Shown piece by piece: positions 44,920 to 63,941 of a stretch of DNA of 64,000 bases. The translations under genes were made by a program, and so were the position numbers. Origin of the DNA: Nitrospirota bacterium (GTDB taxonomy: Bacteria > Nitrospirota > JACRHL01); contig JAOUFN010000004.1 of assembly GCA_029858285.1 (NCBI GenBank), forward strand, positions 1-64,000. The letters run 5' to 3'. Positions within the stretch are counted from its first letter, which is position 1. Every line of letters begins with the position of its first letter. The notes under the pieces are model-generated. The model was not told the DNA's origin. It saw only the letters and a list, made by a program, of their open reading frames with translations, and ran no database searches.

Positions 44920-46578
<1,659 letters not shown>

Positions 46579-46625
46579 CCCACCGGCCCCGACCGGCCCC
46601 CGGACCACCCGGTCCGGAAGCCTTC

Positions 46626-46668
46626 AAAGGCCCCGTTTCCCCAGCGCCTGGGAGACGGGGCCTTTTTT
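46626..46668 (+). terminator. Rho-independent terminator of groESL
   Basis: AAAGGCCCCGT (46626-46636) pairs with ACGGGGCCTTT (46655-46665). An inner TCCC/GGGA extension strengthens it, and a T6 run ends at 46668. This is the clearest intrinsic terminator in the window. Confidence 0.95.
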
Positions 46669-46768
46669 GTGCCCGCCGCGCGGGCCTTCCTGCCGTCCAG
46701 TCGGGGGGTGGCGCCCCCCCCCGCGCCGCCCCCCGGTGGAAGTTTTTTTATGGATCTCACCCCAAGTG

Positions 46769-46797
46769 TTGAAAAGAATGATGTTCTGGGCTATTTT
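46769..46797 (+). promoter_or_regulatory. Promoter of the amidase gene
   Basis: TTGAAA (46769-46774), 17 bp, then TATTTT (46792-46797). Start of transcription near 46804 would leave only 5 nt before an ATG at 46809. This supports the downstream TTG at 46890 as the amidase start. Confidence 0.65.
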
Positions 46798-46889
46798 TAC
46801 CAGTCGGGATGAGGGGTTTTACGGCAATATCCGGTCACCGCGCCCATGGGCGGCGGGGCCTTGAGTCTTCTGCGGGGAGGCAGGCCGGG

Positions 46890-49073
46890 TTGCGTTTGCG
46901 TTCCTTCAAGGGCTTTCTGCTCCTCGTCTGCGGCCTGATTCTCCCCTTGCTGTTCGCCGCGCGCCCCGCCCGCGCCGCCGAAGTGGGCATCACCGACATC
47001 CGCAGTTGGTCCGGGCCGGACAGCACCCGCGTGGTGGCCGATCTGACCGGCGAGGCCGACTATCAGGTAACCCGCAGCGCCGACGGCGCCGAACTGGTGA
47101 TCTCCATCCGCGCCAGCCATGCGATCACCTCGGGCCGCAGTTGGGGGCCGGTGGACAAGCGGGTCGGCCAGATCTCCCTGGAGGAGGGGAGCGGCGCCAG
47201 CGTGGTGCGGGTGAGCCTGACCGGACCGGCCTTTTACAAGCATTTCTCCCTGGCCCCTTACGGCAGCCAGAAACCCCACCGCATCGTGGTGGATGTGCTG
47301 CCCGCCCCGGCCAGGGCGGGCGCGTCGGAAATGGCCCCGACAGCCACCCCGGTATCCCTGCCGCCGCTGTCGCCGCCGCCGGGCCGGGGACCGTTCCTGG
47401 TGATGGTGGACGCGGGCCACGGGGGCGAGGATCCGGGGGCCATTGGCCGCTATTTCCGCACCAGTGAAAAACGCGTGGTGCTGTCCATCGCCCGCAAGCT
47501 GAAGGCCGAGCTGGACGCCATACCGGGCATCCGCGCGCAGATGACCCGCGACGGCGACTACTTCGTCCCCCTGGCGGACCGCATCCGCATGGCCGACGAG
47601 GCGGGGGCCGACCTGTTCGTGAGCATTCACGCCGATTCGTCCCACTCGCGGCGCACCCGTGGTACCCATGTGTACACCCTGTCGCCGCGCAGCTCCGAGG
47701 ACCGTCAGGCGATCCGCGTGGCGCAGATGGAAAACGCCTCGGACTACATCGGCGGCGCCGAGGCGGCGGTGCGGCTGCCCATCGTGTTCGACGGCAACGG
47801 CGCCCCCAACAGCACACTGGAGTCGCGGGTGCTGGGCGCCCTGGCCCTGGAACGGCTGCGCCCGGTCAACAGCAACGGACGCGAGGGGCGCCGGGGGCAG
47901 GCGCGCTTCTGGGTGTTGAAGGGCAACCGCCCCTCGATTCTGGTGGAGACCGGTTTCCTGTCCAACAAGAAGGACGAGCGTCAGTTGCGGGATGCCCGCT
48001 TTCAGAGCCATCTGGCCCGCAACCTGGCGCTGGCGATCCGGGACTATCAGGAAAGCCGCTCCGGCGGCGTGCCGGTGCGGCATGTGGTGCGCCGGGGCGA
48101 GAATCTGGGACTGATCGCCCGCCGCTACCGGGTCGGCGTGGACGAAATCATTGCCGCCAACCGGCTGCGCAACCCGTCGCGGCTGGCGGTGGGGCAGACG
48201 CTGGACATCCCCGGCCGCCGCACCACCCCGCCCACGGTGGGCAGGCGCCCGGACCTGCTGGCCGCCGCCTCCGTTTCGCCGCCCGCGACGACGCCCGCGC
48301 CCGCACCCGCGCCGACCCCGGTGGCGGCGGACAGGCCGGTGGAGGCCGTCGCCGCTCCCCCCTCCGTTCCCGCGCCGCCCACCCCGGTGGCGGTACGCCG
48401 CCATGTGGTGACGCGGGGTGAATACCTGGTCGCCATCGCCCGCAACTACGGGGTCACCCTGGAGGCGCTGGTGCGCGCCAACCAACTGGACCCCGGGCGC
48501 GCCCTGTGGGTGGGGCAGGCGCTGGTGATTCCGGCGGCGGCCAGCGCCGATGCCCTGGTGGCCAGCCTCGACGGCGGGACAGTTTCCGACGTTCCTTCCG
48601 ATACCCGCTCCGGCGCTTCGACCGAAACCGCATCCGACCCCCCGGCGGACCCCGCGGACCCCGCGGGCCGGATGCCGCTGGTGGACAAGTGGAAGGCCAT
48701 GTCCCGGGAAATGCACGCGGGAGAGGGCGCTGCGGCGTCGGCCCCCGAGGCCGCGCCGGAGCCCGGCATCCGCCCCTACACGGTGGTGCGCGGCGACAGC
48801 CTGAGCCGGGTGGCGGAACGCTTCGGCATGCGGGTGGCGGATCTGGCGCGGCTCAACGGGCTGTCGGTGCGGGCGCGGCTGGAGACCGGCCGGGGCCTGA
48901 AGGTCGTCGACAACGGCGGCGGGGCCGAACGCCTGCACGTGGTGCGCCGGGGTGATTCCCTGATGGGCATCGCCCGGCTGTACGCAGTGGCCCCCGACAG
49001 CATCCGCGACCGGAACGCCATCGACAATGCCGACCACCTGCCGGTGGGGGCGCGGTTGTTGATTCCCAATTAA
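46890..49073 (+). CDS. amiC: N-acetylmuramoyl-L-alanine amidase with AMIN, Amidase_3 and LysM repeats
   Basis: Periplasmic peptidoglycan amidase for daughter-cell separation. From TTG 46890 (GGGGAGG 9 nt upstream) it has 727 residues: signal peptide (cleavage after ARA), AMIN domain (about 30-120, septal targeting), a Pro linker, and Amidase_3 (about 165-390) with zinc ligands in VDAGHGGEDPG, the following Glu, SIHAD and the catalytic Glu in VETGFLSN. Four LysM modules follow (VRRGENLGLIARRY, VTRGEYLVAIARNY, VVRGDSLSRVAERF, VRRGDSLMGIARLY), separated by Ala/Pro linkers. Four C-terminal LysMs are more than usual. ATG 46809 is an alternative start. The symbol is by family; AmiA/B/C cannot be separated with certainty. 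Confidence 0.88.
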   Translation: MRLRSFKGFLLLVCGLILPLLFAARPARAAEVGITDIRSWSGPDSTRVVADLTGEADYQVTRSADGAELVISIRASHAITSGRSWGPVDKRVGQISLEEGSGASVVRVSLTGPAFYKHFSLAPYGSQKPHRIVVDVLPAPARAGASEMAPTATPVSLPPLSPPPGRGPFLVMVDAGHGGEDPGAIGRYFRTSEKRVVLSIARKLKAELDAIPGIRAQMTRDGDYFVPLADRIRMADEAGADLFVSIHADSSHSRRTRGTHVYTLSPRSSEDRQAIRVAQMENASDYIGGAEAAVRLPIVFDGNGAPNSTLESRVLGALALERLRPVNSNGREGRRGQARFWVLKGNRPSILVETGFLSNKKDERQLRDARFQSHLARNLALAIRDYQESRSGGVPVRHVVRRGENLGLIARRYRVGVDEIIAANRLRNPSRLAVGQTLDIPGRRTTPPTVGRRPDLLAAASVSPPATTPAPAPAPTPVAADRPVEAVAAPPSVPAPPTPVAVRRHVVTRGEYLVAIARNYGVTLEALVRANQLDPGRALWVGQALVIPAAASADALVASLDGGTVSDVPSDTRSGASTETASDPPADPADPAGRMPLVDKWKAMSREMHAGEGAAASAPEAAPEPGIRPYTVVRGDSLSRVAERFGMRVADLARLNGLSVRARLETGRGLKVVDNGGGAERLHVVRRGDSLMGIARLYAVAPDSIRDRNAIDNADHLPVGARLLIPN

Positions 49074-49128
49074 CCGCTTGCCGCGACATTTTCCCCCGGA
49101 ATTCCCGGCCGGTCGTTCGGGCCGCGGT

Positions 49129-50067
49129 CTACCCGCGCGGGTGGTAGCGGCGGTGAATCTCCTTGAGCCGCTCCCGCGACACATGGGTATAGATTTGCGT
49201 GGTGCCGATGTCGGCGTGTCCGAGCAGGGTTTGCACCACGCGCAGATCCGCCCCCCCCTCCAGCAGGTGGGTGGCGAAGGTGTGGCGCAGGGTGTGGGGG
49301 GAGATGTGGCGGATGCCGCAGCGGGTGGCCCGTTCGGACAGCATGTGCCAGCAGTTCTGGCGCGTCATCGGGCCGCCCCGGCGGCTGAGGAACACGCAGG
49401 GGGCGGCCTTTTTCTGTTGCCCTGCGGGTCTGTTGGCCCGGCCCCCGGGGCTTCCCGCCGCCAGCATCGGCCGCGCGTGCTGGAGATAGTCCGCCAGCCG
49501 CTCCCGCGCCGCCATGCCCATGGGCACCAGCCGCTCGCGGTTGCCCTTGCCGATCACCCGCACCCGCCCCGCCTCCAGGTCCAGCCCGTCCAGGGTCAGT
49601 TGCACGGTCTCCGACACGCGCAACCCGGCGGCATACATCAGTTCCACGATGGCGGCGTTGCGCAGCCCCAGCGGACCGGCCTCCAGGGCCGGGTCCAGCA
49701 GGCGCGCCATGTCGTCCAGGGACAAGGCGTCCGGCAACGGCCGCCACAGTTTGGGGGGGACCAGGTCCATGGCCGGGTTGTCGGGGCGGAGCCCCTCGTC
49801 CGCCAGATGGCGGGCAAAGCCGCGCATGGCCGAGGCGGCGCGGCGCGCCGAGGCCGGGGCGATTCCCTGCCCGGTCAGCCACCCCAGATGGTCCTCCAGA
49901 TGGTTGCGGGTCAGGTCTTCGGGACGCCCGACGCCGTTATGGGCGGCCCAGCGCGCCAGCCGTTCCAGATCGGTCCGGTAACCGGACGCGGTATGCACCG
50001 ACAGGCGCCGTTCCGCCACCAGATGCTCCAGATAGTCGCGGATGCGTTCCCGGAACGTCTCCGCCAT
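49129..50067 (-). CDS. xerD: Tyrosine recombinase XerD (or XerC)
   Basis: Resolves chromosome dimers at dif. The 312-residue protein has an N-terminal SAM-like DNA-binding domain (YLEHLVAERRLSVHTASGYRTDL) and the catalytic domain with Arg in AAGLRVSE, Lys in GKGNRERLVP, HTLRHTF, His in LLGHADI and nucleophile Tyr in TQIYTHV. ATG 50067 is preferred; a longer frame to 50196 passes through a 15-bp duplication and reads as low-complexity. The catalytic part contains an insert of about 15 residues (GSPGGRANRPAGQQKK) before FLSRRG. No phage genes surround it. Confidence 0.93.
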   Translation of the reverse strand: MAETFRERIRDYLEHLVAERRLSVHTASGYRTDLERLARWAAHNGVGRPEDLTRNHLEDHLGWLTGQGIAPASARRAASAMRGFARHLADEGLRPDNPAMDLVPPKLWRPLPDALSLDDMARLLDPALEAGPLGLRNAAIVELMYAAGLRVSETVQLTLDGLDLEAGRVRVIGKGNRERLVPMGMAARERLADYLQHARPMLAAGSPGGRANRPAGQQKKAAPCVFLSRRGGPMTRQNCWHMLSERATRCGIRHISPHTLRHTFATHLLEGGADLRVVQTLLGHADIGTTQIYTHVSRERLKEIHRRYHPRG

Positions 50068-50130
50068 CGCCGCCCCCGGACTCCCGGAGGAAGGGGGGGG
50101 CGCGGCCTCGGCGGGTCGGGGCGAGGCGGT

Positions 50131-50160
50131 GGCGTGGGGGGAATCGGCGTGGGGGGAATC
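50131..50160. repeat. 15-bp perfect tandem duplication
   Basis: GGCGTGGGGGGAATC is present twice head to tail (50131-50145, 50146-50160) in the divergent spacer between xerD and the LpoA-like gene. Confidence 0.9.
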
Positions 50161-50200
50161 AGGAAGAGAAGGCCGGATGTCTGCTGCGTGTGGCATCGGG

Positions 50201-50209
50201 TGTTATATT
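50201..50209 (+). promoter_or_regulatory. Extended -10 promoter of the LpoA-like gene
   Basis: TGT followed by TATATT (-10 at 50204-50209) matches the TGn-TATAAT extended -10 form. There is no good -35. Transcription would start about 20 bp before ATG 50235. Confidence 0.5.
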
Positions 50210-50234
50210 AGCCGGGTTACCACGGACGGTGCTC

Positions 50235-52523
50235 ATGGAACTTCAGACTGAAAATCTTGCAATGCGCACACAAGCGGGCGGATTCCGCCCTGGGTTTGTT
50301 TGGGGTCTGGCGGTCCTGATCCTGTCCGTCGGCCTGTTGCTCCCGGCCCCGGTGTCGGCCCAGCCAAAGGGGGCCCCGGCGCCCCAGGGGCCATCCGCCG
50401 AAGGCGCCGCAAAGCCGCCCCGGCCGCAGGCGATTCCCCGCCGCGACGACACCAAACCGGTGCTGGACGCCCACACCCTGTACGAATCGGGCCGCCTCGA
50501 CGCCGCCATTACCGCCTACAAGGAGGTGCTGGTGGCGTTTCCCGACACCATGCACATGGAGGCGGTGCTGTATCGGCTGGGGGATGCCCTCGACCGCCAG
50601 AACCGACTCGCCGAGGCGGCGCCATATTGGGAAAAGCTGATCGCCGACTTCCCGGATCATCCGGAAATCCCGCGCATCGAGGACCGGCTGCTGGTGGTCT
50701 ACCGCGAGCAGAAGAAGTTTTCCTCCGCCCTGCAAATCCTGCTGCGCCAGATGGGGCGCGCCCCGGTGGAGCAAAAGGGCGCGCTGCTGCGGGAGGTGGC
50801 CCTCACGCGCCTGGAACTGTCGGACACGGAACACGCCTTGAGGGACCTGGTGCGGCGCATCTCCCAATACCTGACGCCGGAGCAGGCCCCCGCCGCCGAG
50901 GAGGAAATCAGGAATCTGGTCGGGAAAATCCCCGTGGCCGATCTGGAGCCCCTGGCCGACAAATTCACCGAGCGGGTGCCCGGCGAATGGATCGTCGCGC
51001 GGCTGGCGCACTACCACGCCGGACGCGGCGACCAGTTCCAGACCTCGCGCTGGGTGGACCGCTACCTGAACGCCTTCCCCGCGGGCAGCCAGGCCGCCGG
51101 GATGGAGCAACTGATCCAGACCCAGGAGGAGCAGATCCTCAAGCGCACCCACCGGGTGGGGCTGTTCCTGCACCTGTCCGGAGACTTGAAAGGCTTTGGC
51201 GAACAGGTGCGGCGGGGGGCGCAACTGGCCTACGACACGGCGGCCCCCAAGCTGCCGGGAAATTTCCTCGGGCTGTGGGTCTACGACATGGACGGGCCGG
51301 CGCCGCTCCTTGGCGGCCATCTGCGCAAGCTGCTGCGGCACGCCAGCCCGGAAGTGGTGGTGGGCCCCATGCTCAGCAGCGAAGTGGCTGAATACGCCCA
51401 CGTGGCCCGCAACGAGGGGGTGCCCATGATCGCCCCCCTGGTAGAGCGTCCCGAAGAGGGGGGTGACGGGGTGGTGGGGCTGGGCGTGTCCCCGGCCATG
51501 GAGGGGGTGGCTGCGGCGCGCCACGCCTTCGGCACCCTGCACCTGAACAAAATGATCGTGCTGTACGCCGACACCGCCTACGGCCGGGCGGTGAAGGAGG
51601 CCTTCGTCACCGAGTTTGCCGGTCTGGGTGGCCAGGTGAACATGGCGGCCCCGTTCCAGCCGGACGGCGGGGACGCCAGCCAGGCGCTGCGCAAGATCAT
51701 CAAGGACGACACAGAACACAACGGCGGGATTCCCGGCATCACCCAGGATCAGGTCAAGCAGGCGCACCGCGTGGCGCCCGACGCGCCGCCCCTGGAGGTG
51801 CGTCTTTATGAGCCGGGCTTCGACGGCGTGTTTATGGCCGGCAACTGGGAGCAGACCGTGCTGGTGGCGCCGCACCTGCCTTTCAACGACATTACCACCC
51901 CCCTGATCGGCTCCGGCGCGTGGAACGATCCGCGCCTGCTGCGCAACGCCGGTGGCGCGGTGATCGGTGCGGAGTTCCCGGCGGTGTTTTTCCGCGGCAC
52001 CCCGCAGGCGCAGGCGTTCATCACCGCCTACCACAAGATTTATGACAGTGATCCGGGGCTGTTCGTGGCCCTTGGCTACGACGCCATGAATCTGGCCATC
52101 CGCGCCCTGCGCAGCGGCAATGCCGCGGAAGGGGTGGCGGGCCCCTTCGACGGGGTGACCGGCCACTTCGAGGTGGGCGCCGACGGCACCGTGGTGCGCT
52201 CCCTGTCCATGCTGCGGGTGAGTCGGCGCGGCCTTACCGAGGTGGCGCGGGTGTCCCTCAAACCGCGTCCCGGCGGCGGGCTGGATGTGCTGGAGACCAC
52301 CACCGCCAGCGGCGGCGAGGAGGTCATCGAGGGGTTGCCGGAAGAGGAGTCCCTGCCCCCCGCGGGCGCCCCCGGAAGTGGCGGGGTGCCGGAAGACGTG
52401 CCCGAGAGCCCGATGGCTGGCGGTTCGGCGGCGGACGCGGCTTCTGCCCCCGCTTCCGCACCCGGCGCGGCGGGCCAGACCGGGGGGCGTGCCGCCGCGC
52501 CGGCCCCGGTCGCGGCGCACTGA
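50235..52523 (+). CDS. Penicillin-binding protein activator, LpoA/LppC-like
   Basis: A 762-residue periplasmic protein. After a signal peptide (LAVLILSVGLLLPAPVSA) and a Pro/Ala linker, residues about 80-300 are TPR-like helices (LYESGRLDAAITAYKEVLVAFPD, LYRLGDALDRQNRLAEAAPYWEKLI). A type I periplasmic-binding fold follows from about 305 (VGLFLHLSGDLKGFGEQVRRGAQLAYD to YDAMNLAIRALRSG). This is the LpoA layout, but no lipobox Cys is present, so it is soluble or held otherwise. The C-terminal 90 residues are low-complexity Ala/Gly/Pro/Ser. ATG 50235 is preferred; ATG 50262 gives a shorter signal. It overlaps the next gene by 1 bp. Confidence 0.8.
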   Translation: MELQTENLAMRTQAGGFRPGFVWGLAVLILSVGLLLPAPVSAQPKGAPAPQGPSAEGAAKPPRPQAIPRRDDTKPVLDAHTLYESGRLDAAITAYKEVLVAFPDTMHMEAVLYRLGDALDRQNRLAEAAPYWEKLIADFPDHPEIPRIEDRLLVVYREQKKFSSALQILLRQMGRAPVEQKGALLREVALTRLELSDTEHALRDLVRRISQYLTPEQAPAAEEEIRNLVGKIPVADLEPLADKFTERVPGEWIVARLAHYHAGRGDQFQTSRWVDRYLNAFPAGSQAAGMEQLIQTQEEQILKRTHRVGLFLHLSGDLKGFGEQVRRGAQLAYDTAAPKLPGNFLGLWVYDMDGPAPLLGGHLRKLLRHASPEVVVGPMLSSEVAEYAHVARNEGVPMIAPLVERPEEGGDGVVGLGVSPAMEGVAAARHAFGTLHLNKMIVLYADTAYGRAVKEAFVTEFAGLGGQVNMAAPFQPDGGDASQALRKIIKDDTEHNGGIPGITQDQVKQAHRVAPDAPPLEVRLYEPGFDGVFMAGNWEQTVLVAPHLPFNDITTPLIGSGAWNDPRLLRNAGGAVIGAEFPAVFFRGTPQAQAFITAYHKIYDSDPGLFVALGYDAMNLAIRALRSGNAAEGVAGPFDGVTGHFEVGADGTVVRSLSMLRVSRRGLTEVARVSLKPRPGGGLDVLETTTASGGEEVIEGLPEEESLPPAGAPGSGGVPEDVPESPMAGGSAADAASAPASAPGAAGQTGGRAAAPAPVAAH

Positions 52524-53236
52524 TGGCGCAATTGTCGGAGTCAATTCGCACGGCGGCCATGATCGCCCTGCCGCTGGTGTTTGCCGTCACCCTGCACGAG
52601 GCCGCCCACGGCTGGATGGCGAACCGCAAGGGCGATTCCACGGCGCGCCTGCTGGGGCGCATCACCGCCAACCCCCTGCCGCACATCGACCCGGTGGGCA
52701 CGGTGCTGGTGCCCTTGCTGCTGCTGCTGTCCGGGGCCGGTTTTCTGTTCGGCTGGGCCAAGCCGGTGCCGGTCAATTTCCGCGCCCTGCGGCGCCCCCG
52801 CATCGACATGGCCTGGGTGGCGGCGGCGGGGCCGGGCGCCAACCTGCTCATGGCGCTGGCGGCGGGGGTGGCGTGCCAGGCCGTGGTGTGGATGCTGCCC
52901 GAATTGGGCCTGGTGCTGCGCTGGCCGCCGTTTTCCATGCCGGGAGAGATTCCGGAAGGCTACCGCCTGTCCCTGCCCCTGCTGTTGATCTTCAAATGCG
53001 CGGTGGAGCTGAACGTCATTTTGATGTGCTTCAACCTGCTGCCGATTCCCCCGCTGGACGGGGGCCGCGTGGCGGTGGGCCTGCTGCCTCCGGGTCCGGC
53101 CCACACCCTGTCATTGATCGAGCCGGTGGGCATTTTCGTGGTCCTGGCCCTGGTGTGGCTGGATCCGGGCGGGGCCATGCACCAGGTGTTCTGGCCGGGG
53201 GTGCTGGGGCTGGCGCGGCTGATTCTGGGGGGCTGA
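52523..53236 (+). CDS. Site-2 protease family membrane metalloprotease (M50)
   Basis: A 237-residue integral membrane protein with about six helices. The zinc motif is His25-Glu-Ala-Ala-His29 in the first helix, and the partner motif LLPIPPLDGGRV (Asn-Pro-Asp region) lies near the C terminus. It lacks the PDZ domain of RseP, placing it in the small S2P group common beside housekeeping genes. Substrate unknown. The ATG overlaps the upstream stop codon (TGATG), so it is coupled to the LpoA-like gene. Confidence 0.92.
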   Translation: MAQLSESIRTAAMIALPLVFAVTLHEAAHGWMANRKGDSTARLLGRITANPLPHIDPVGTVLVPLLLLLSGAGFLFGWAKPVPVNFRALRRPRIDMAWVAAAGPGANLLMALAAGVACQAVVWMLPELGLVLRWPPFSMPGEIPEGYRLSLPLLLIFKCAVELNVILMCFNLLPIPPLDGGRVAVGLLPPGPAHTLSLIEPVGIFVVLALVWLDPGGAMHQVFWPGVLGLARLILGG

Positions 53237-53547
53237 CGGCCAAATGGCGCGGCGGACGCGGCGGCCAGAACGGCGGCCCCCGGATGGCCCGTTGCAATGG
53301 GCCATTGCCAAAGGGAGGGGAAATCCCGTAAGTCATGGGGATGAATGGTGCGGGATGGGCCGACCCGTGGGGGTCCGCCAGCAGCGTCCCGTCCCCGCGA
53401 ACACCCGGTAGCACGAAAAATTAAAAGATGGCATTGACGCCTTCTGGAAGCTAATGCTACTTTAATAAAAAACGTGCTACCAATCGGTTTCATCCCTGCG
53501 GGCGAAGGCCCCAACGGGGTGTCCGGCTAACATCAGCAGGAGGATCC
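53237..53547. other. Intergenic region ahead of the metal-uptake locus
   Basis: 311 bp without a gene. A hairpin ATGGCCC...GGGCCAT (53284-53305) follows the protease gene. A longer interrupted stem may form between GGTGCGGGA (53347-53355) and its partner region 53388-53405. The promoter and motif copies of the porin-like gene follow, described separately. Confidence 0.6.
53407..53481 (+). promoter_or_regulatory. Promoter with flanking GTAGCACG motifs upstream of the porin-like gene
   Basis: TTGACG (53434-53439), 18 bp, TACTTT (53458-53463, preceded by TGC as in an extended -10). It is bracketed by GGTAGCACG (53407-53415) and its exact complement CGTGCTACC (53473-53481). Each is followed inward by an A/T-only run of 11-12 bases. 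The downstream copy overlaps the expected transcription start, the upstream one lies about 60 bp before it. Layout suggests a regulator bound at two sites. Confidence 0.65.
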
Positions 53548-54789
53548 ATGCGACGGTTGAATGAAATGTGGACGGCGGTCACCCTGGCCGCGGGACTGGC
53601 GATGGGGGTGAGCGCCCCCGTGTGGGCCCATGAGGACGGGGAGGAGGGCGGCCACCTGATCCCCCACCATGTGGACGGCCTGTCCGTGGAGGGCGGCATG
53701 ACCTGGTACCTGCAGGGCACCGACGGCCTGAAGAAGGGGGCGCAGCCCGGCGACGCCGCCGACCTGACCTACACCCTGGATTTGGGGGTCAGCGCCCGGG
53801 TCACCGAGGGCACCTCGCTCAACGTGGCCTTCGAGGCCGGTGACGGCAACGGCGTGAACGGCCGCCTGGGGTCCCTGTCCACCGCCAACTACGACGCCTT
53901 CATCACCGAGGTGTCGGCGGGGCAGAATTTCCCCAATCTCAGTCAGGCCTATCTGGAGAGCAAGTTCGCGGATGGCGGGGTCGTCCTCGAGTTCGGCAAG
54001 CTGGACATCCATTCCCACTACGACGACAACGCCTTCGCCAACGACGAGACCGCCCAGTTCCTGAGTGGCATCTTCACCCGCTCCGCGGGCACCAGCTACG
54101 GCGAGCTGGACGGCTACTACGCGCCGGGCGTGGCGCTGACCGTCGCCGCCGGTTCCCACCTGACCCTGCACGGCGTGCTGGCCAACGGCAACGGCTCCGG
54201 CTTTGACGGCGTCAGCGACCGTCCCTACGCCGCCGCCCAGGTCACCCTGAATCACTGCGGCGGGGAGTGGAGCGAGGGCAATGTGCGCCTCTACGGCATC
54301 CGCGACGCCCGCCGCTACCTGGATTTGAACGGTCGGCAAACCGAAAACATCGCCTGGGGCGTGAGTGTGGATCAGGCCCTCGGTCCCGTCGGCCTGTTCG
54401 GGCGCTACTCGGCCCAGAAGGACGACATCCAGCTCATCAACAAGTGGGACGCGGCCACCGCCACCTACAGCATCGTGGAGCCCGCCAACCTGGTGAAGGG
54501 CGCCTGGAGCGGCGGCGTGCAACTGGGCGGCGCCCTGTGGGGGCGCGAGGCCGACGCGGTGGGCATCGGCTACGGCGTGGTGCAGGCCAACGGCAAAAAC
54601 CCCGAGTGGGTCGCCACGGCCGGCATCGCCAACCCGGACGACGAGACCCATCTGGAGGTCTATTACAGTCTGGCGGTGTCCGACCATCTGGCGTTCACCG
54701 CCGACGTGCAGCAGATCGGCAGCAACGGCGGCGATCCGGCGGCGGACGCCATCCGTATCTACGGCGTGCGCGGCCAGATCAATTTCTAG
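53548..54789 (+). CDS. Outer-membrane porin-like beta-barrel protein
   Basis: A 413-residue exported protein. The signal peptide ends after VWA, and the mature N terminus is acidic and His-rich ([14 protein letters not shown]), fit for metal binding. The rest alternates polar and hydrophobic residues in strands and ends in a terminal Phe, as outer-membrane barrels do. OprB-like or other carbohydrate-type porins share the [21 protein letters not shown]-like region (here starting VLEFGKLD). Its position ahead of NikK- and CbiMQO-like genes suggests entry of Ni or Co across the outer membrane (inference). GGAGGA precedes ATG 53548. Confidence 0.75.
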
Positions 54790-54914
54790 TTCCCGGTGCG
54801 ACCGGGCGGATCGCCGCGGATGGGCGGTTCCGCCCGGTTGCCTTTCGGGTGGGCGCAAAAACGGGGGTGGCCGGCGCATCAGGCCGCGGCCCGGAACCAA
54901 AAAAGGAGCGAGTC

Positions 54915-55691
54915 ATGAAACGGTTGAGTGTTTGCGCGGCCCTGGCGGCCTGTTTGACGGCCACCCCGGCGCTGGCCCATTTTCAGATGATCATCCCCTC
55001 CGACGACATGGTGGTGCAGGGGGAGTCGAAAAACCTCACCCTCGACCTGCGTTTCTGGCACCCCCTGGAGGGGCACGGCATGCCCATGGCCAGGCCGCTC
55101 CGCGTCGGCGTGCTCGCCCGCGGCAAAAAAACCGATCTGGCCGCCAGCCTGAAGCCGGTCAAGCTCAAGGACCGCACCGGCCAGATGCGTGACGGCTTTA
55201 CCGCCAGCCACACCATCGGTCGCGGCGACCACGTCTACTTTGTCGAGCCCGCCCCTTACTGGGAGTCCGCCGAGGACAAGTTCATCATCCACTACACCAA
55301 GGTGGTGGTGAACGGTCTGGGGGTGGAGGATGCGTGGGACCAGCCGGTGGGCCTCAAGACCGAGATCATCCCCCTCACCCGTCCCTACGGCCTGTACAGC
55401 GGCAACGTGTTTCAGGGGCGGGTGCTGCTGAACGGCAAGCCGGTGCCCGGCGCCGGGGTGGAGGTGGAGTTCTACGACGAAAAGGGCGCCGTTCATCCCC
55501 CCGCCGGCCCCATGGTCACCCAGGTGGTCAAGGCCGACGCCATGGGGGTGTTCACCTACGCCATGCCGCGCGCGGGCTGGTGGGGCTTTGCCGCCCTGAG
55601 CACCGACGACAAGCCGATGAAATTCAAGGGCCAGGACAAGGAGGTGGAGATCGGCGCCGTACTGTGGGTCAAGACCTACGACATGAAGTAG
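54915..55691 (+). CDS. DUF4198 (NikK-like) periplasmic protein
   Basis: A 258-residue secreted protein with signal peptide ending ALA before His-Phe-Gln. The exposed His at the mature N terminus is typical of this family (COG5266, associated with Ni/Co ECF transporters and called NikK in some genomes) and may bind metal directly. Motifs visible are [27 protein letters not shown] and the C-terminal domain [20 protein letters not shown] of the carboxypeptidase-regulatory-like fold. AAAAGGAGC is the ribosome-binding site. It should deliver or capture metal for the downstream transporter. Confidence 0.88.
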
Positions 55692-55712
55692 GGCGGAGGA
55701 AAACGGGGGGTC

Positions 55713-55743
55713 GGTAGCCAATTTTTAAATTTCGTGCTACGAT
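55713..55743 (+). promoter_or_regulatory. cbiM promoter region with GTAGC/GCTAC motif
   Basis: GGTAGCC and GTGCTAC, separated by an A/T-rich core, lie at 55713-55740. TAGCCA (55715-55720) and TACGAT (55738-55743, with TGC in front) form -35 and extended -10 boxes at 17-bp spacing. On the minus strand the same element reads GTAGCACG followed by 13 A/T bases, matching the two copies upstream of the porin-like gene. Confidence 0.6.
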
Positions 55744-55766
55744 CCCTTTCAGCGTGACAGAGCGTC

Positions 55767-55828
55767 CCCGCCCCGCCAGTCCGGGGCGGGAGCGGGTGTC
55801 CGGGTCGGCCCCGCCGGTTGGCCCGGAC
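55767..55828 (+). promoter_or_regulatory. Two strong hairpins in the cbiM leader
   Basis: CCCGCCCCG-N6-CGGGGCGGG (55767-55790) and GTCCGGG-N17-CCCGGAC (55798-55828, with an inner CGGC/GCCG stem) are perfect inverted repeats. They lie between the promoter and ATG 55879. No cobalamin B12 box is present. They may form a structured leader or an attenuator. Confidence 0.6.
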
Positions 55829-55878
55829 CCCTGCCGTTTGTGTTGTCAGTTATCAGTTGTCATTAGGATAAGCCCATC

Positions 55879-56997
55879 ATGCATATCTCCGACGGCATCC
55901 TGAACGCCCCGGTGTGGATCGGCGGCTACGCCGCCACAGCCGCCCTCACCGCCGCCACCCTGTACAAGGTGGACATGGAGGAGATCCCCAAAATCTCCGT
56001 GCTCACGGCGGTGTTTTTCGTGGCCGACCTGATCCACGTGCCCATGGGGCCCGCCAGTGTGCACCTGATTTTGAACGGCCTGCTGGGGGTGATTCTGGGG
56101 TGGCGTGCCTTTCCCGCCGTGCTGCTGGGGGTCACCCTCCAGACCATCCTGCTCGGTCACGGCGGCCTCACGGTCATTGGCGTCAACACGCTGGACCTGG
56201 GAGGCGGGGCGCTGGTGGGGTTCCTGGTGTGGCAACTGCGCCACCTGATGCCCGGCCTGAAAAACCGCGAAATGGTGTTCGGCGCGCTGGCCGGGGCCTT
56301 CGCCGTGGCCTCCAGCGGCATGATCATGGCCAGCGCCCTGCTGTTCACCGGCAAGGAATTTCTGTTTCAGGCCAAGATGGTGCTGGTGGCCCACGCCATC
56401 ATCATGGTGCTGGAGGCCACGGTGGTCGGCTTTGCCGCCAGCTACCTGGCCAGGGTGCGGCCGGATGCCCTGGCGGGCCAGCGCAAGCGCCCCGTGGACC
56501 TGCGCGGCGTGACCCCGTTGCTGGTGGCCCTGTTGATCGGCGCGGCCCTGCTGGCGCCGGTTCCGGCCCATGCCCATAAACTGCTGGTGGACTACACCCC
56601 GCGCAAGGAGGGGGTGCTGTTCGAGGCCTTTTTTCCCGATGGCAAACCGGCCCAGCAAATCGGTGTGCGGCTGCTCACTCCCCAGGGCGAGGTGATCGCC
56701 AGCGGCACCACCAACGTCCACGGCGGCTACCTGTTTTCCATCCCCGCCGCGGGCGACTATGCGGCCGACGCGGACGCCCAGATGGGCCATTTTGCCCGCC
56801 TCGACATTCCCGCCTCCGCCCTCGAAGGGGTGGTGGAGTACGGCGCCGCGCCGGTGGATGAGGAGGCGCTGGGGGCGGTCAAGGTGCACCGCGAGGCGTT
56901 CCCGCTGGCAAGGGTCGTGGTCGGCTTCGGCATTCTGGCGCTGTTGGGGGGCGGTTCCTGGCTGCTGTCGCGCCGCCGCAAGCAGGGGGCCGCGTAA
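55879..56997 (+). CDS. cbiM: CbiM/NikM substrate-binding membrane protein fused to a NikL-like domain
   Basis: S-component of a nickel or cobalt ECF transporter. The protein starts MHISDGIL; in this family the free N terminus and His2 coordinate the metal. Residues about 1-205 form the CbiM membrane domain (HVPMGPASVHLILNGLLG). A second hydrophobic segment ending AHAH (about 220-234) then leads to a periplasmic domain (about 235-345, strand-rich) and a last helix with RRRKQ. That C-terminal half corresponds to NikL, which is usually separate. 372 residues in total. It is followed at once by CbiQ and CbiO. Ni versus Co cannot be decided, but NikK/NikL-type partners favour Ni. Confidence 0.92.
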   Translation: MHISDGILNAPVWIGGYAATAALTAATLYKVDMEEIPKISVLTAVFFVADLIHVPMGPASVHLILNGLLGVILGWRAFPAVLLGVTLQTILLGHGGLTVIGVNTLDLGGGALVGFLVWQLRHLMPGLKNREMVFGALAGAFAVASSGMIMASALLFTGKEFLFQAKMVLVAHAIIMVLEATVVGFAASYLARVRPDALAGQRKRPVDLRGVTPLLVALLIGAALLAPVPAHAHKLLVDYTPRKEGVLFEAFFPDGKPAQQIGVRLLTPQGEVIASGTTNVHGGYLFSIPAAGDYAADADAQMGHFARLDIPASALEGVVEYGAAPVDEEALGAVKVHREAFPLARVVVGFGILALLGGGSWLLSRRRKQGAA

Positions 56998-57000
56998 CCC

Positions 57001-57789
57001 ATGCCGTTGGATATCGACCGTTACGCCAGCGTCGGCTCCTCCATCCAGCGCTGGGACCCGCGCTTCAAGATTTTCTCGCTGGGGCTGTTCGCGTTTTCCG
57101 TGGCCCTGCTCAAAACCCTGCCCGTGGCCGGGCTGGCGCTGCTGGCGGCCATGGGTTTTCTGGCCCTCACCGGCATGCCCCTGGCATTCATTTCCGGCGG
57201 CCTCAAGTGGGTGATCCTGTTCCTGCTGCCGTTCTTCGGCATTCTGCCGTTCACCTATCCGGGGGAGCCGGCCATGTACCTGCTGGGCCTGCCCTTCAGT
57301 TGGGAGGGGATGCGCCTGGCGGTGCTGATCATCACCAAGGCGGTGGCCATCGTGCTCACCAGCTACGCGGTGTTCGGCTCGGCGCGTTTCGACATCTCCA
57401 TGCTTGCCATGCAGCGTCTCAAGTGCCCTTCGGTGCTGGTGCAGATGCTGCTGTTTTCCTACCGCTACATCTTCGTGTTCATGGAAGAGATGGCGCGCAT
57501 GTCCACCGCCATGCGGGTGCGGGGTTTTGTCATGGGCACCAACCTGTATACCCTGAGGGTGGTGGGCAATTTTGTCGGCAGCCTGCTGGTGCGCAGCTTC
57601 GAACGCACCGAGCGGGTCTACAAGGCCATGCTTTCCAAGGGCTATCAGGGGCAGCTCCACACCCTGGTGGTGTTCCGCTCGCGGCCCAAGGATTTTTTCA
57701 AGGCGGCGCTGGTGCTGGCGGTGGCGGTCCTGCTGCTGGCCGGTGACTTTACCGGCACCTTCCCCGAGGCCCGCCAGGGCTGGTATTGA
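57001..57789 (+). CDS. cbiQ: ECF transporter transmembrane protein CbiQ/NikQ
   Basis: T-component coupling the ATPase to CbiM. The 262-residue protein has five to six helices and the two cytoplasmic Ala-Arg-Gly-type coupling motifs: MRVRGFVMG (about 172) and ERVYKAMLSKGYQG (about 205). The N-terminal WDPRFKIFSLGLF is typical. ATG 57001 is 3 bp after cbiM. Confidence 0.95.
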   Translation: MPLDIDRYASVGSSIQRWDPRFKIFSLGLFAFSVALLKTLPVAGLALLAAMGFLALTGMPLAFISGGLKWVILFLLPFFGILPFTYPGEPAMYLLGLPFSWEGMRLAVLIITKAVAIVLTSYAVFGSARFDISMLAMQRLKCPSVLVQMLLFSYRYIFVFMEEMARMSTAMRVRGFVMGTNLYTLRVVGNFVGSLLVRSFERTERVYKAMLSKGYQGQLHTLVVFRSRPKDFFKAALVLAVAVLLLAGDFTGTFPEARQGWY

Positions 57790-57842
57790 CGGCCCCTTGC
57801 GGCGCGCGTCTATCATGTGTACCCACTGGAGACTGTAATCCC

Positions 57843-59105
57843 ATGTCGGACCCCGTTTTCGCCACCCAGCCCGAATTTGCCATCCAGGCCGACAACGTCG
57901 TCTTCAGCTACCCGGACGGCCACCAGGTGCTCAAGGGGTTGAGCTGCACCATCCGCCCCGGAGAAAAGGTGGCGCTGATCGGTCCCAACGGGGCGGGCAA
58001 ATCCACCCTCATGAGCCACCTGAACGGCGTCAACATCGCCACCAGCGGCGCAGTGCGCATCGGCGGGGTAGAGATCAACCGCTCCAGCCTCAAGGCCGTG
58101 CGGCGCAAGGTCGGCATCGTGTTCCAGGACCCGGACGACCAGCTTTTCTGCCCCACCGTGTTCGACGACGTGGCCTTTGGCCCGCTCAACCTCGGCCTGT
58201 CCCGCGACGCCATCGCCCGGCGCGTGGAAGAGGCGCTGGAGACCGTGGGCCTGCGCGGCTACGAGGAGCGCTCCAGCTACCACCTGTCGTTCGGCGAGCG
58301 CAAGCGCCTGGCGCTGGCCACCGTGCTCAGTTACCAGCCCGACATTCTGGTGTTCGACGAGCCGTCCACCAACATGGACCCGCTCAACCGCCGCAAGCTG
58401 ATCGACTGGCTGCGGGGCACCGACAAGACCATTCTGCTGTGCACCCACGACCTGGACATCGCCCTGGAGGTCTGTGACCGCTGCCTGATGCTGGTGGACG
58501 GCCGCATCGTCGCCGACGGACCGGCCTCGGAGATTCTCTACGACCGCCACCTGCTGGAGGCCAACCACCTGGAGCTGCCCCTGGCCCTGATGACCCACGA
58601 ACTGCTGCACGACAAGCTGATGGCCGGAGAGATGGACGAGGAGCACCGCCGCATCATCGAGCAGTTCCTGCACGCCCACCGCCACGTCCACGGGCCGGAA
58701 GGGCACGAGCACGTCCACCTGCACGCCCACGACCACGGCCACGGCCACCTGCACGAGGGGGCCGACACCGACCACGCCCACGACGCGGATCAGGAGCACG
58801 ACCACATCCACGCCGCCGGGCACGACCACGCCGCCGGGCACGACCACGCCGCCGGGCACGACCACGACGCGCCCATGTCCCACGGGGATGATTGTTGCGA
58901 CGACGACCACGACCATTACCACGAGCACGACGACGACCACGGCCACGACCACGGTCACCACCACGCCGACCATGTGGGCATCCCCCACACTCACGGGCAC
59001 GGGGACGACCACGACCATCAGCACCACGACCACGAGCACGACCACCACGGCCAGGCTCACGGGCATCAGCACGGCACCGGCCATCACGACAAAAAACCGT
59101 TGTAA
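57843..59105 (+). CDS. cbiO: ECF transporter ATPase CbiO/NikO with a large histidine-rich tail
   Basis: ATP-binding subunit of the Ni/Co transporter. Residues 1-275 form the ABC domain: Walker A IGPNGAGKST, Q-loop VFQDPDDQLF, signature LSFGERKRLALA (Gly-Glu-Arg instead of Gly-Gln-Lys), Walker B ILVFDEPSTNMDP, His-loop CTHDLD. Residues about 276-420 are an extraordinary tail with about 50 His among some 145 residues, mostly in His-Asp, His-Gly and His-Ala-Ala-Gly pairs, and one Cys-Cys. Part is encoded by an exact 18-bp tandem repeat. It would bind many metal ions in the cytoplasm: a store, sensor or buffer is plausible. Confidence 0.94.
   Translation: MSDPVFATQPEFAIQADNVVFSYPDGHQVLKGLSCTIRPGEKVALIGPNGAGKSTLMSHLNGVNIATSGAVRIGGVEINRSSLKAVRRKVGIVFQDPDDQLFCPTVFDDVAFGPLNLGLSRDAIARRVEEALETVGLRGYEERSSYHLSFGERKRLALATVLSYQPDILVFDEPSTNMDPLNRRKLIDWLRGTDKTILLCTHDLDIALEVCDRCLMLVDGRIVADGPASEILYDRHLLEANHLELPLALMTHELLHDKLMAGEMDEEHRRIIEQFLHAHRHVHGPEGHEHVHLHAHDHGHGHLHEGADTDHAHDADQEHDHIHAAGHDHAAGHDHAAGHDHDAPMSHGDDCCDDDHDHYHEHDDDHGHDHGHHHADHVGIPHTHGHGDDHDHQHHDHEHDHHGQAHGHQHGTGHHDKKPL
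58812..58865. repeat. 18-bp coding tandem repeat in cbiO, three units
   Basis: Three exact copies of GCCGCCGGGCACGACCAC encode Ala-Ala-Gly-His-Asp-His. The array lies in the middle of the His-rich tail. Confidence 0.93.
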
Positions 59106-59128
59106 CAGCGGCATAAGGACCCATTTCC

Positions 59129-59788
59129 ATGAATCTGCCCACACTGCGTTCGCTGCCCCGGTCGTTCCGGGTGATGATCACTGGTTTTTTGCTGGTGCTG
59201 GGAACCGGATACGGTCTGGCGGCCTTGAACGCAGCGCTGGAGGTGGGCATTTCCCCCGCAGCCATTTCCGACCACTACGGCGAACCGTCCCTGTCCGGGG
59301 AGGAGGCCGCCGTGATGGCCGAACAGGGCTATGTGGAGGAGGAGTTCAGCCTTGGCGACGAGGGGGGCGTGGCCCACTCCGCCGACCACTCCGCCGACGC
59401 GGAACACGCCGGTGACATGCACCATGCCGACGATTTTGGCGCGGAACCCATGGACGCCCACGACGGCGAGACGGGCGGGGAGGCCATCGAGCTGGAAGAC
59501 CTGGTGGAGTTGTCCCACATCCACCTGCTCGCCTTCTCCCTGATCCTCTTCTGCGCCGGCACCCTGGCCTGCCTCAGCAGTTGGAGCGAGGGCGTCAAGT
59601 CGGTGCTGGTGGGCGCCCTGGCGGCGTGCCTGCTGCTGGACATCGGCAGCCTGTTCCTGGTGCGCTTCGTCAGCGCCGGGATGGCGTGGCTGACCTTTGT
59701 CGCCGGTTCCGGCATCGGCATCTGCCTGCTGCTCATCAGCCTGCGGGTGCTGTGGGACCTGTGGGGCCCCGAATCACCGGCGGCATGA
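59129..59788 (+). CDS. Membrane protein with acidic/His-rich loop, unknown function
   Basis: A 219-residue protein with four predicted transmembrane segments (about 15-37, 132-152, 157-177 and 183-206). Between the first and second is a long hydrophilic loop (about 40-128), very rich in Asp, Glu and His (HSADHSADAEHAGDMHHADD), which would be periplasmic by topology. No known family. Position directly behind cbiO and the His/acidic loop suggest a metal-related role, perhaps metal capture (inference). It probably belongs to the cbiMQO transcript. Confidence 0.78.
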   Translation: MNLPTLRSLPRSFRVMITGFLLVLGTGYGLAALNAALEVGISPAAISDHYGEPSLSGEEAAVMAEQGYVEEEFSLGDEGGVAHSADHSADAEHAGDMHHADDFGAEPMDAHDGETGGEAIELEDLVELSHIHLLAFSLILFCAGTLACLSSWSEGVKSVLVGALAACLLLDIGSLFLVRFVSAGMAWLTFVAGSGIGICLLLISLRVLWDLWGPESPAA

Positions 59789-59832
59789 CCCGTGCGATCC
59801 ATCACACACCGGTACACACAGGGAGAACCGAT

Positions 59833-60486
59833 ATGCCGATGACGACACTGTTGCACAAGGCCCTGCCCCTGGGCTCATCCCGCCTGCGGACCGCGGCGCG
59901 GGCGTGGCCGCTGGCCGCGGGTCTTTTTTTGGTGGCGGGCGTGCTGCTGGCGCTGGCCGCGCCGCGTCCGGCCCTGGCCCACGAGAGCCATGCCGGGCCG
60001 CTGATCACCTTTTTGTCGGACAACGACGCCCTCAAGGAAATGCTCCCCGCCGACGCCGCCCTCACGCGCCGCAAGCAGGCCCTGTCGCCGGAGGGCGCCG
60101 CATGGGCCAAAAGCACCCTGGGGGTGGCCGTCAAACCCCAGATGTATGAATTCATTCTGGCGCGGGACAAGTCCGGCGGTCAGGTGGTGGGCGCCGTGAT
60201 GCTCCTCGACACCGAGGTGGAGCACGGCGAGGCGCGTCTGGCGGTGGGGGTGGACGCTCAGGGGGGCATCACCCGCGCCGCCGTGCTGTCCGTCAACCGC
60301 AAATATGTGCCCGAGGTGACGGGTCAGGCCGGGCGCGGGTTCATTCCCGACCTGACGGGCGCCACCGTGGCGCAGGCCGCCTCCCGCGCCGCCATGGCCA
60401 AGGGCGAGGTGGGCCGCAGCGTGTTCGGTCAGTTGCGCGACATGGCGGCGGCGCTGGCGGCGCTGCTGCACACGCTGGAATCGTAA
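59833..60486 (+). CDS. Exported FMN-binding-domain protein
   Basis: A 217-residue protein starting at ATG 59833 behind GGGAGA. The signal peptide or anchor ends at ALA before His-Glu-Ser-His. The C-terminal half shows the FMN_bind signature: DLTGATVAQAASRA with Thr178 as the likely covalent FMN attachment point (Ser/Thr-Gly-Ala-Thr motif of RnfG/NqrC-like proteins). Such flavoproteins need ApbE, which is not in this window. Unlike RnfG it has no partner Rnf genes here. The gene ends the metal-uptake run and is followed by a terminator. A periplasmic redox step in metal handling is possible, but unproven. Confidence 0.8.
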   Translation: MPMTTLLHKALPLGSSRLRTAARAWPLAAGLFLVAGVLLALAAPRPALAHESHAGPLITFLSDNDALKEMLPADAALTRRKQALSPEGAAWAKSTLGVAVKPQMYEFILARDKSGGQVVGAVMLLDTEVEHGEARLAVGVDAQGGITRAAVLSVNRKYVPEVTGQAGRGFIPDLTGATVAQAASRAAMAKGEVGRSVFGQLRDMAAALAALLHTLES

Positions 60487-60511
60487 ATCCCGCCCCGAAG
60501 GGCCACGGCCT

Positions 60512-60554
60512 GCGGCGCGCGCCCCCCGGTGCGGGGCGCGCGCCGCGCCGCTTT
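60512..60554 (+). terminator. Strong intrinsic terminator after the FMN-binding gene
   Basis: A perfect 14-bp GC stem (60512-60525 pairing with 60533-60546) with a 7-nt loop is followed a few bases later by TTTT. It separates the FMN-binding gene from the HMA-domain gene; the T tract is short, so some readthrough is possible. Confidence 0.8.
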
Positions 60555-60573
60555 TGCACAAGGAGACCACCCC

Positions 60574-60780
60574 ATGCAAACCACACTGAAAGTGGACGGA
60601 ATGACCTGCAACGGCTGCGTCAACAACGTGACCAACGTGTTGCGCGGCCTGCTTGGCGTGAAGGACGTCAAGGTATCGCTGGAGTCCGGCCTGGCGGTCG
60701 TCACCCACGAGGAGGCCGTGGCCGTGCCGATCCTGATCGGCGCCGTCGAGGCCGCCGGTTATGAAGCCACCCACGCCTGA
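60574..60780 (+). CDS. Heavy-metal-associated (HMA) domain protein, CopZ/MerP-like
   Basis: A 68-residue stand-alone HMA domain with the metal motif Met10-Thr-Cys12-Asn-Gly-Cys15 and the conserved GVKDVKVSLESGLAVV strand. These proteins bind Cu(I) or related soft metals and hand them to ATPases or sensors. No signal peptide, so cytoplasmic. AAGGAG precedes the ATG. The metal is unknown; the neighbouring Ni/Co locus and the oxidase-like operon both make metal supply relevant. The next gene's possible start (ATG 60761) overlaps its end. Confidence 0.93.
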   Translation: MQTTLKVDGMTCNGCVNNVTNVLRGLLGVKDVKVSLESGLAVVTHEEAVAVPILIGAVEAAGYEATHA

Positions 60781-60781
60781 C

Positions 60782-61783
60782 ATGTCCCTGCCGACGGATG
60801 GGGGTGCCGGGGACGTGGCGGTCCGCCGCGAACGGGAACACCGGGAGGAGTACGACCGCCGCTACCGGGTCGGCTACATGCAGGCCTGGCCGGAAGGCAA
60901 AAAACGGCGGGTGGCGGGGTTTGTCCGCTCTCTCGGCCTGCCGTCCACGGGTGTGGCGCTGGATTTCGGGTGTGGCACCGGCGAATTCACCGCCCTGCTC
61001 CAGGCCACCCTGCCCGGATGGGAGGTGTGGGGGGTGGAACTGAGCCCGGAGGCTGCACGCATCGCCCGGGAAAAAGTCCCGGACGCGCGTTTCGTGGACC
61101 CTGCGGTGTTGCGGGACAGCGCGCCACGGTTCGACCTGATCTTTTCCCATCATGTGCTGGAACACGTGGAGGATCTGGACCAGACCTTCAGCGGCCTGAA
61201 CCGCCTGCTGTTGCCGGGGGGGCACATGGTGCACATCCTGCCGTGCGGCAATCCGGGCAGCCTGGAACACACCGTCTGCGGGTGGCGCAACGGGGGGATC
61301 GACGCCGCCAGCGGCCGTTTTTTTTTCGAGGAACCGGGGCACCTGCGCCGGGCCGATACCGCCACCTTTCTGCGCCTGGCCCACGCCGGGGGGCTGCGGC
61401 TCGTGGGGGAACGGTACAGCGGGCATTTTTTCGGCGGGCTCTCGTGGATCACCGGCGCCAGCCCCCACACGGTCCTGCCCATGTGCAGCCCCAGGGGGGT
61501 GAGGGCGGGCGCGTGGCCGCAATTGCTGGCGTTCTCGGCGGTGGTCATGCTGCTCAACGGCGTCCGGTTTCCGGAATTTTTCCGCACGCGGAATCACGCC
61601 CGGACCCTGGCGGGCGCCAGTTCCCGCGTCGAGCGTGCAATGGCCGGATTCCTGTGGCCGGCCGCCTGGATCTCCGGGGCATGCGCCCGCCTGCTGGAGC
61701 GTCTGGCGGACCGGGAGTGGGTCCGGCGCGGCGCCGGGCGGGGCGGCAGCGAGATGTACCTGCACCTGCTGAAAGAACCGTAA
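60782..61783 (+). CDS. Class I SAM-dependent methyltransferase, substrate unknown
   Basis: A 333-residue soluble protein. Rossmann-type methyltransferase with motif I LDFGCGTGEFT, acidic motif II VELSP, and FDLIFSHHVLEHVEDLD typical of the Methyltransf_11/23 group. The C-terminal 130 residues include a hydrophobic section (LLAFSAVVMLLNG) and basic residues. ATG 60782 gives no overlap with the HMA gene; ATG 60761 adds seven residues and overlaps it by 20 bp. Substrate cannot be read from the sequence. Confidence 0.85.
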   Translation: MSLPTDGGAGDVAVRREREHREEYDRRYRVGYMQAWPEGKKRRVAGFVRSLGLPSTGVALDFGCGTGEFTALLQATLPGWEVWGVELSPEAARIAREKVPDARFVDPAVLRDSAPRFDLIFSHHVLEHVEDLDQTFSGLNRLLLPGGHMVHILPCGNPGSLEHTVCGWRNGGIDAASGRFFFEEPGHLRRADTATFLRLAHAGGLRLVGERYSGHFFGGLSWITGASPHTVLPMCSPRGVRAGAWPQLLAFSAVVMLLNGVRFPEFFRTRNHARTLAGASSRVERAMAGFLWPAAWISGACARLLERLADREWVRRGAGRGGSEMYLHLLKEP

Positions 61784-61802
61784 CCGGCGACCTCCCCGGC
61801 GC

Positions 61803-61817
61803 ACCGGGTCCCCCGGT
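61803..61817 (+). terminator. Small hairpin after the methyltransferase gene
   Basis: ACCGGG-TCC-CCCGGT followed by TTG. Short and without a proper T tract, but placed 20 bp after the stop codon and immediately before the next promoter. Confidence 0.4.
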
Positions 61818-61857
61818 TTGTGAAAGTGTCGCCAATCGGCCTATAATCCCCCGATTG
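61818..61857 (+). promoter_or_regulatory. Promoter and inverted-repeat operator of the cytochrome operon
   Basis: TTGTGA (61818-61823) and an exact TATAAT (61842-61847) at 18-bp spacing. A perfect inverted repeat CAATCGG-N11-CCGATTG (61833-61839 and 61851-61857) is centred on the -10 box. A dimeric repressor bound here would block the promoter. The sequence does not match the FNR box (TTGAT-N4-ATCAA). Confidence 0.75.
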
Positions 61858-61916
61858 CAAAAAAGTGTGCCGCCCGGCGCGCGCCTTGCCGCCGGGCCAA
61901 CACGGGAGTTTTTTCC

Positions 61917-62192
61917 ATGCCCGAGATGCCGTCCCTTTGGGTTCCCTATGTGTGGGTGCTGTCCGCCGTCTTCCTGCTGATCTTCGTGGTCATCGCCGTG
62001 ACCTGGGGGTTCAAGCGGGGGCAGTTCAACGAGGACATCAAGTACCAGATGTTCGAGGATCTGGACGACGACATGTACCTCGATGACCGGGAGCAGGCCC
62101 TGGCCATGCACCAGAAGAAAATCGCCCGCGAGGCGCGCCTGAAGCAGGAGGCCGGGGAGGCCGGCCGTGGGGGAGCTGCGGCAGGCTCGTGA
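61917..62192 (+). CDS. Small CcoS-like membrane protein
   Basis: A 91-residue protein with one N-terminal transmembrane helix (about 8-32, VWVLSAVFLLIFVVIAVTWG), then WGFKRGQFNEDIKYQMFEDLDDD and a charged coiled tail. The helix followed by Arg/Gly-Gln-Phe-x-(Asp/Glu) resembles CcoS, a small protein needed for cbb3 oxidase maturation; the extended tail is longer than in CcoS. The match is suggestive, not firm. It heads the right-edge operon and overlaps the cytochrome gene by 4 bp. Confidence 0.6.
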   Translation: MPEMPSLWVPYVWVLSAVFLLIFVVIAVTWGFKRGQFNEDIKYQMFEDLDDDMYLDDREQALAMHQKKIAREARLKQEAGEAGRGGAAAGS

Positions 62193-63919: not shown

Positions 63920-63941
63920 CATCGGGGATACCCCGCAGCCA

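Follow-up and report, generated by a model that had tools for sequence, protein, structure and literature searches.

Putative NikR operators with self-complementary half-sites at nickel-uptake promoters of a Nitrospirota bacterium

The 64-kb stretch of Nitrospirota DNA analyzed here (the window) carries a cluster of genes for nickel/cobalt uptake:

53548-54789, + strand: OprB-family porin gene (Pfam PF04966, E 3.8e-23), candidate outer-membrane nickel channel
54915-55691, + strand: nikK-like gene (DUF4198; Pfam PF10670, E 4.9e-59)
55879-56997, + strand: cbiM/nikM with a NikL-like C-terminal part (PF01891, E 1.3e-44; NF058648 NikL, E 2e-18 but below cut-off)
57001-57789, + strand: cbiQ/nikQ (PF02361; TIGR02454 over cut-off)
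57813-59105, + strand: cbiO/nikO ATPase (PF00005) with a long His/Asp-rich tail, the latter read from the sequence

The tail of the ATPase, at 58700-59105, looks as if it stored or sensed metal. Two genes without a Pfam match follow nikO (59129-60486), and similar-looking ORFs follow nikO in the related genomes G003 and G001; these are possible accessory parts of the transporter. Hydrogenase and urease were both dropped as the nickel user of the window's genome. Its sole match to [NiFe]-hydrogenase (PF00374) spans 69 positions in an ORF that reads like NuoD of complex I, and urease was not found in it, but only in G002.

A first-pass annotation of this DNA had described three copies of GTAGCACG, each followed by 11-13 A/T bases, as a regulatory motif shared by nickel/cobalt uptake promoters. 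The copies are present, at 53408-53415 on the + strand and at 53473-53480 and 55733-55740 on the - strand (the last shifted by one from the coordinate first given), with unbroken A/T runs of 11, 12, and 13 bases, respectively. Two of them lie 5´ of the porin gene, which the DUF4198 gene follows, and one lies between the DUF4198 gene and cbiM/nikM. The bare 8-mer is unremarkable in the window, with three copies seen against 0.79 expected and at least three in 5 of 100 shuffles. When the A/T run is included and up to three mismatches are allowed, the window holds four matches against a shuffle mean of 0.20, a count reached in 0 of 100 shuffles. Across the whole genome (2.56 Mb in 57 contigs), GTAGCACGW10 has three exact matches, all of them the window sites, and four more with two mismatches each; the reversed control gave six matches in all. 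The unrelated random copies that the first-pass annotation had feared thus do not occur for the exact motif.

Related genomes revealed a second half-site at a spacing of 13 or 14 bp, and GTAGCACG as a one-sided motif was given up. The full unit in the window consists of two 7-bp halves with 13 bp between them, and GTAGCACG with its A/T run is the strong half of each. One half of every site is a perfect GTRNYAC, and the other is degenerate, one or two letters off. The sites are listed with their scores and ranks in the window under the matrix described below.

53408-53434, + strand: putative NikR-type operator A, GTAGCAC-N13-ATGGCAT; on the upstream side of the predicted porin -35 box, which it touches; score 23.2, rank 3; orthologous site in G003
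53454-53480, - strand: putative NikR-type operator B, GTAGCAC-N13-GTAGCAT (plus strand ATGCTAC-N13-GTGCTAC); overlaps the -10 box predicted there; score 30.0, rank 1; one mismatch to the grammar pattern given below
55714-55740, - strand: putative NikR-type operator C, GTAGCAC-N13-TGGCTAC (plus strand GTAGCCA-N13-GTGCTAC); score 25.5, rank 2; orthologous sites in G001, G002, and G003

Downstream of site C, GTGACAG reads as a third half-site; by eye it is not kept in G003 or G001.

A check for nikR found one gene in the window's genome, on another contig (C29; E 4.6e-33, over the NCBIfam cut-off). The encoded protein has a ribbon-helix-helix domain (PF01402, 31.9 bits, cut-off 20.5) and a NikR_C domain (PF08753, 113.5 bits, cut-off 22). 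Residues H78, H89, H91, and C97, which by E. coli NikR we take to be the nickel ligands, are invariant across the four genera of the class, and the best PDB match is sequence u23460 of entry 2bj1 (1.2e-46), a Pyrococcus NikR. The nikR promoter itself contains GTGCTAC-N14-GTATTAC (C29:93177-93204, 77 bp before the nikR start), and the 7-mer of the window is therefore also found at nikR. G003 and G001 have GTGTTAC-N14-GTGATAC at the matching place, and the region upstream of G002 nikR has no site within two deviations. The "uncharacterised metalloregulator" of the first-pass annotation thus very probably gives way to the one NikR of the genome, whose own promoter holds the same kind of site.

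The four class genomes, G000 (the window's own) to G003, represent four genera of one family. Each has one nikR and one cbiM, and NikR-type sites are kept at nickel-transport promoters in all four. G003 has a syntenic porin-nikK-nikM cluster with operator-type sites at the same three places as the window: GTAGCAC-N13-GTAGCAT, GTGGCAC-N13-GTAACAC (minus strand), and GTAGCCA-N13-GTGCTAC. The porin sites of G001 are GTAACAC-N13-ATAGCAA and GTGTTAC-N14-GTGTCAC, and its nikM site is GTAGCCG-N13-GTGCTAC. The G002 nickel cluster is without the porin and nikK, and two facing sites precede its cbiM together with a proximal GTAGTCA-N13-GTGTTAC. At the nikM promoters the site is thus kept in four of four genomes (GTAGCCA, GTAGCCA, GTAGCCG, or GTAGTCA, then N13-GTGYTAC), the conservation in related cbiM promoters on which the first-pass annotation had made its motif depend.

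A site matrix trained on the three other genera only (G001-G003) was then applied to the window's genome. The window sites took ranks 1-3 (30.0, 25.5, and 23.2); the next hit scored 17.9, and 20 Markov shuffles reached no more than 15.0. In a search of 17 kb, the nikR site came first with 22.4 (next hit 13.5, best shuffle 11.9). A search of the four genomes with the grammar GTRNYAC-N-W11-N-GTRNYAC, at up to three mismatches, returned 14 sites (4, 2, 5, and 3 in G000 to G003), and the reversed pattern returned 8. Ten of the 14, including all with 0-2 mismatches, lie in nickel-transport promoters or in one promoter on contig C448 of G002; the other four all have three mismatches. Position C44:4754 in the window's genome is a grammar site with three mismatches. 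A larger regulon in this genome was rejected: the extra near-matches on C7, C16, C38, and C52 are inside or across open reading frames, and that at C50:5467, apparently intergenic, is without a second half.

The G002 promoter (G002:C448:7648-7719, locus L051) reads TTGACA-N17-TACTTT, with two NikR-type sites around it, each with one mismatch. It is followed by a small Cys-containing ORF, which has no Pfam family, and two very His-rich ORFs, possibly NikR-controlled nickel-binding proteins.

Sites at cbiM were also compared with the presence of NikR. With a 1.5-kb flank, a site within two deviations lies upstream of cbiM in 6 of 7 genomes with NikR versus 2 of 23 in which no NikR was found (Fisher p 0.0003), where several NikR-less genomes are incomplete and many NikR-less loci have nikK immediately before cbiM, without an intervening promoter. 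With the four motif-defining genomes set aside, 2 of 3 compares with 2 of 23 (p 0.052). The sites at the two NikR-less loci are chance-grade, and one genome with NikR, G031, has no site at its cbiM locus.

The putative operators coincide with predicted promoters, all of whose positions are consensus readings and not mapped starts:

53434-53463, + strand: predicted porin promoter, TTGACG-N18-TACTTT, by consensus only
55715-55743, + strand: predicted nikM promoter, TAGCCA-N17-TACGAT; operator C contains or touches both of its boxes; same layout in four of four genomes

The predicted nikR promoter is TTGACA-N17-TACAAA; for the distal cbiM promoter of G002, no pair of boxes was found by script. 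At the predicted porin, nikM, and nikR promoters, the -10 box opens with the TAC of a half-site. The -35 box of nikM falls within the other half-site, and at the porin the last base of site A is also the first of the -35 box. The centres of sites A and B are separated by 46 bp in the window's genome and likewise in G003. This coincidence of half-sites with predicted -10 and -35 boxes suggests repression by occlusion of RNA polymerase. The degenerate halves (ATGGCAT, ATGCTAC, and GTAGCCA) are those overlapping promoter boxes, which suggests a compromise between the operator and promoter codes.

The window motif is very probably the operator of NikR, a nickel-responsive ribbon-helix-helix repressor encoded on another contig, and the sites most likely switch nickel uptake off when nickel is sufficient. 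We infer NikR binding, nickel dependence, and the direction of regulation from the positions of the sites, their conservation, their coincidence with nikR and with nickel-transport genes, and an intact NikR. In the mechanism we propose, the operator would be two copies of GTRNYAC 13-14 bp apart, with centres 20-21 bp (about two helical turns) from each other and an A/T-rich spacer. With plentiful Ni(II), a Ni-NikR tetramer would set one two-fold symmetric ribbon-helix-helix dimer on each half-site, covering the -35 and/or -10 boxes in the promoters of porin-nikK, nikM, and nikR, which would block RNA polymerase. When nickel is scarce, NikR would let go and uptake would rise.

There is a slim chance that GTAGCACG is instead read by an uncharacterised cobalt or nickel metalloregulator, Fur/Nur-like or of another family. 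The HMMs do annotate the cluster as cobalt-type CbiMQO, and the half-sites are one letter off the published GTGTTAC consensus, but the published letters, GTAACAC/GTGTTAC, stand at the same places in G002, a member of the same family. The presence of the site in nikR's own promoter also argues against such a regulator, as do the single Fur-family gene found in the genome and the cbiM loci of nine genomes of family f8 in which no NikR was found (some incomplete), where the stretches examined hold no site.

Slighter still is the probability that the A/T tract serves chiefly as an UP element or bend of the promoter, with an incidental 8-mer beside it. Site A does lie directly before the predicted -35 box and in contact with it, where UP elements are found, and the 8-mer without its A/T run is no unlikely find in the window. 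However, site C lies over its predicted promoter rather than upstream of it, and different genera, and the nikR promoter too, preserve both halves at a spacing of 13-14 bp; a UP-element role could coexist with NikR binding. The element might also act at the RNA level, either as a riboswitch for cobalamin or NiCo or as an attenuator. Cobalamin riboswitches are common before cbiM-type operons. B12 elements are listed in PMC545781. This reading we regard as extremely improbable, since window positions 45000-64000 contain no Rfam match above a family's gathering score, and the sites overlap predicted promoter boxes, not leaders, and occur on both strands.

The reading of the motif as a NikR operator leads to the form of the half-site. 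The reverse complement of GTRNYAC is again GTRNYAC; orientation is therefore uninformative, and direct, inverted, and everted pairs are equivalent. Everted or inverted orientation was dropped as a diagnostic for this reason. The resemblance to NikR half-sites that the first-pass annotation had seen holds up, and the reversed orientation it had raised as an objection falls away.

We sampled 29 regions of 320 bp upstream of nikR (25 from the wider phylum and four from the class; L085, without upstream DNA, was excluded). An exact GTRNYAC-N13/14-GTRNYAC pair is present in 14 of the 29, against a maximum of 0 in 60 shuffled sets, a count that is partly fitted because the R/Y letters were added after the wider nikR loci had been viewed; the outer GT...AC frame was taken from the window's family before them, and many of the 29 loci are related. 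Allowing one deviation, with an A/T-rich spacer, the pair is found in 20 of 29 (maximum in 60 shuffled sets, 1); nine regions have no site within one deviation, and six, G002 included, none within two. Nine of the 14 exact pairs are direct repeats, such as GTAACAC-N13-GTAACAC in G214 and G240 and GTGCTAC-N13-GTGCTAC in G371 and G101, and five are inverted, such as GTGTTAC-N13-GTAACAC in G245 and G140. Four nikR genes of family f25 (L078, L079, L082, and L084) have no upstream site within two deviations; their NikRs are 68-71% identical with an RFGVS strand and may have their targets elsewhere than at nikR.

The NikR recognition strands read RFG[VI]S, with L049 as the single exception. The strand of this lineage thus differs from that of E. 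coli NikR, which we take to be RVTIT. L049, whose strand (RITMS) resembles that of E. coli, shows no GTRNYAC pair within one deviation in 12.6 kb. L050, with an RFGVS strand, has GTGACAA-N13-GTGTTAC before nikM. These few cases suggest that strand type may be tied to half-site type. Upstream of nikK at L049 (4195-4230) there is an inverted repeat, TGTGATCTG-N9-CAGATTACA, which may be a different type of operator.

Known systems were compared on the basis of PMC545781, PMC5385501, PMC7055735, PMC9860126, and PMC11247825. The delta-proteobacterial NikR signal is given as GTGTTAC-[N13/14]-GTAACAC, with an "opposite orientation" form, GTAACAC-[N13/14]-GTGTTAC, in D. psychrophila and D. vulgaris (Rodionov et al., 2004, PMC545781). 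The window sites share its 7-bp halves, its N13/14 spacing, and its location before nikMQO and nikK. The G002 sites have exactly its letters, whereas the window's genome uses GTAGCAC/GTGCTAC, and direct repeats, common here, are absent from the signal as described in PMC545781. A self-complementary GTRNYAC half-site explains the opposite-orientation sites of these two species.

H. pylori NikR is described as recognizing a TRWYA-N15-TRWYA dyad with 20 nt between centres that overlaps core promoters (PMC5385501). Its half-site is likewise self-complementary, so that orientation is uninformative there as well, and GTRNYAC-N13-GTRNYAC contains TRNYA-N15-TRNYA. Unlike in that account, the half-site here has a fixed G and C at its ends and any base, rather than W, at its centre, and no activation is seen. 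H. pylori NikR also controls the outer-membrane proteins HopV and HopW (PMC5385501). By analogy, the OprB-family porin, the first gene after the NikR-type sites also in G001 and G003, is a candidate outer-membrane nickel channel. The E. coli operator, reported as GTATGA-N16-TCATAC (PMC7055735), has the same 28-bp frame, outer GT...AC, and spacer length, but GTATGAC does not fit GTRNYAC, and the window halves are GTAGCAC/GTGCTAC, with no GTATGA/TCATAC. In the literature searched, we found no orientation-free grammar beyond the H. pylori TRWYA motif, and we do not claim it as unpublished.

Our data replace a suggested unknown regulator with a known one, NikR, and extend probable control by NikR to a class of bacteria for which few genomes exist. 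They give a concrete rule, a self-complementary half-site in free orientation with a 13-14 bp spacer, that can be used for annotating nickel regulons and accounts for the oppositely oriented sites of 2004 (PMC545781), and they point to the OprB-family porin as a candidate nickel channel. On balance, we lean toward a wider proposal, in which the half-site recognized by NikRs with an RF[GS][VI]S strand is self-complementary (TRNYA at its core, GTRNYAC in the present case), such that pairs 20-21 bp apart would be equivalent operators whether direct, inverted, or everted, and the regulon of this lineage would gain the OprB-family porin and, in a single genus, a promoter that precedes His-rich protein genes. 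If this is true, an orientation-free grammar unites the delta-proteobacterial, "reversed," and H. pylori motifs, and many direct-repeat NikR sites exist that searches for inverted repeats miss.
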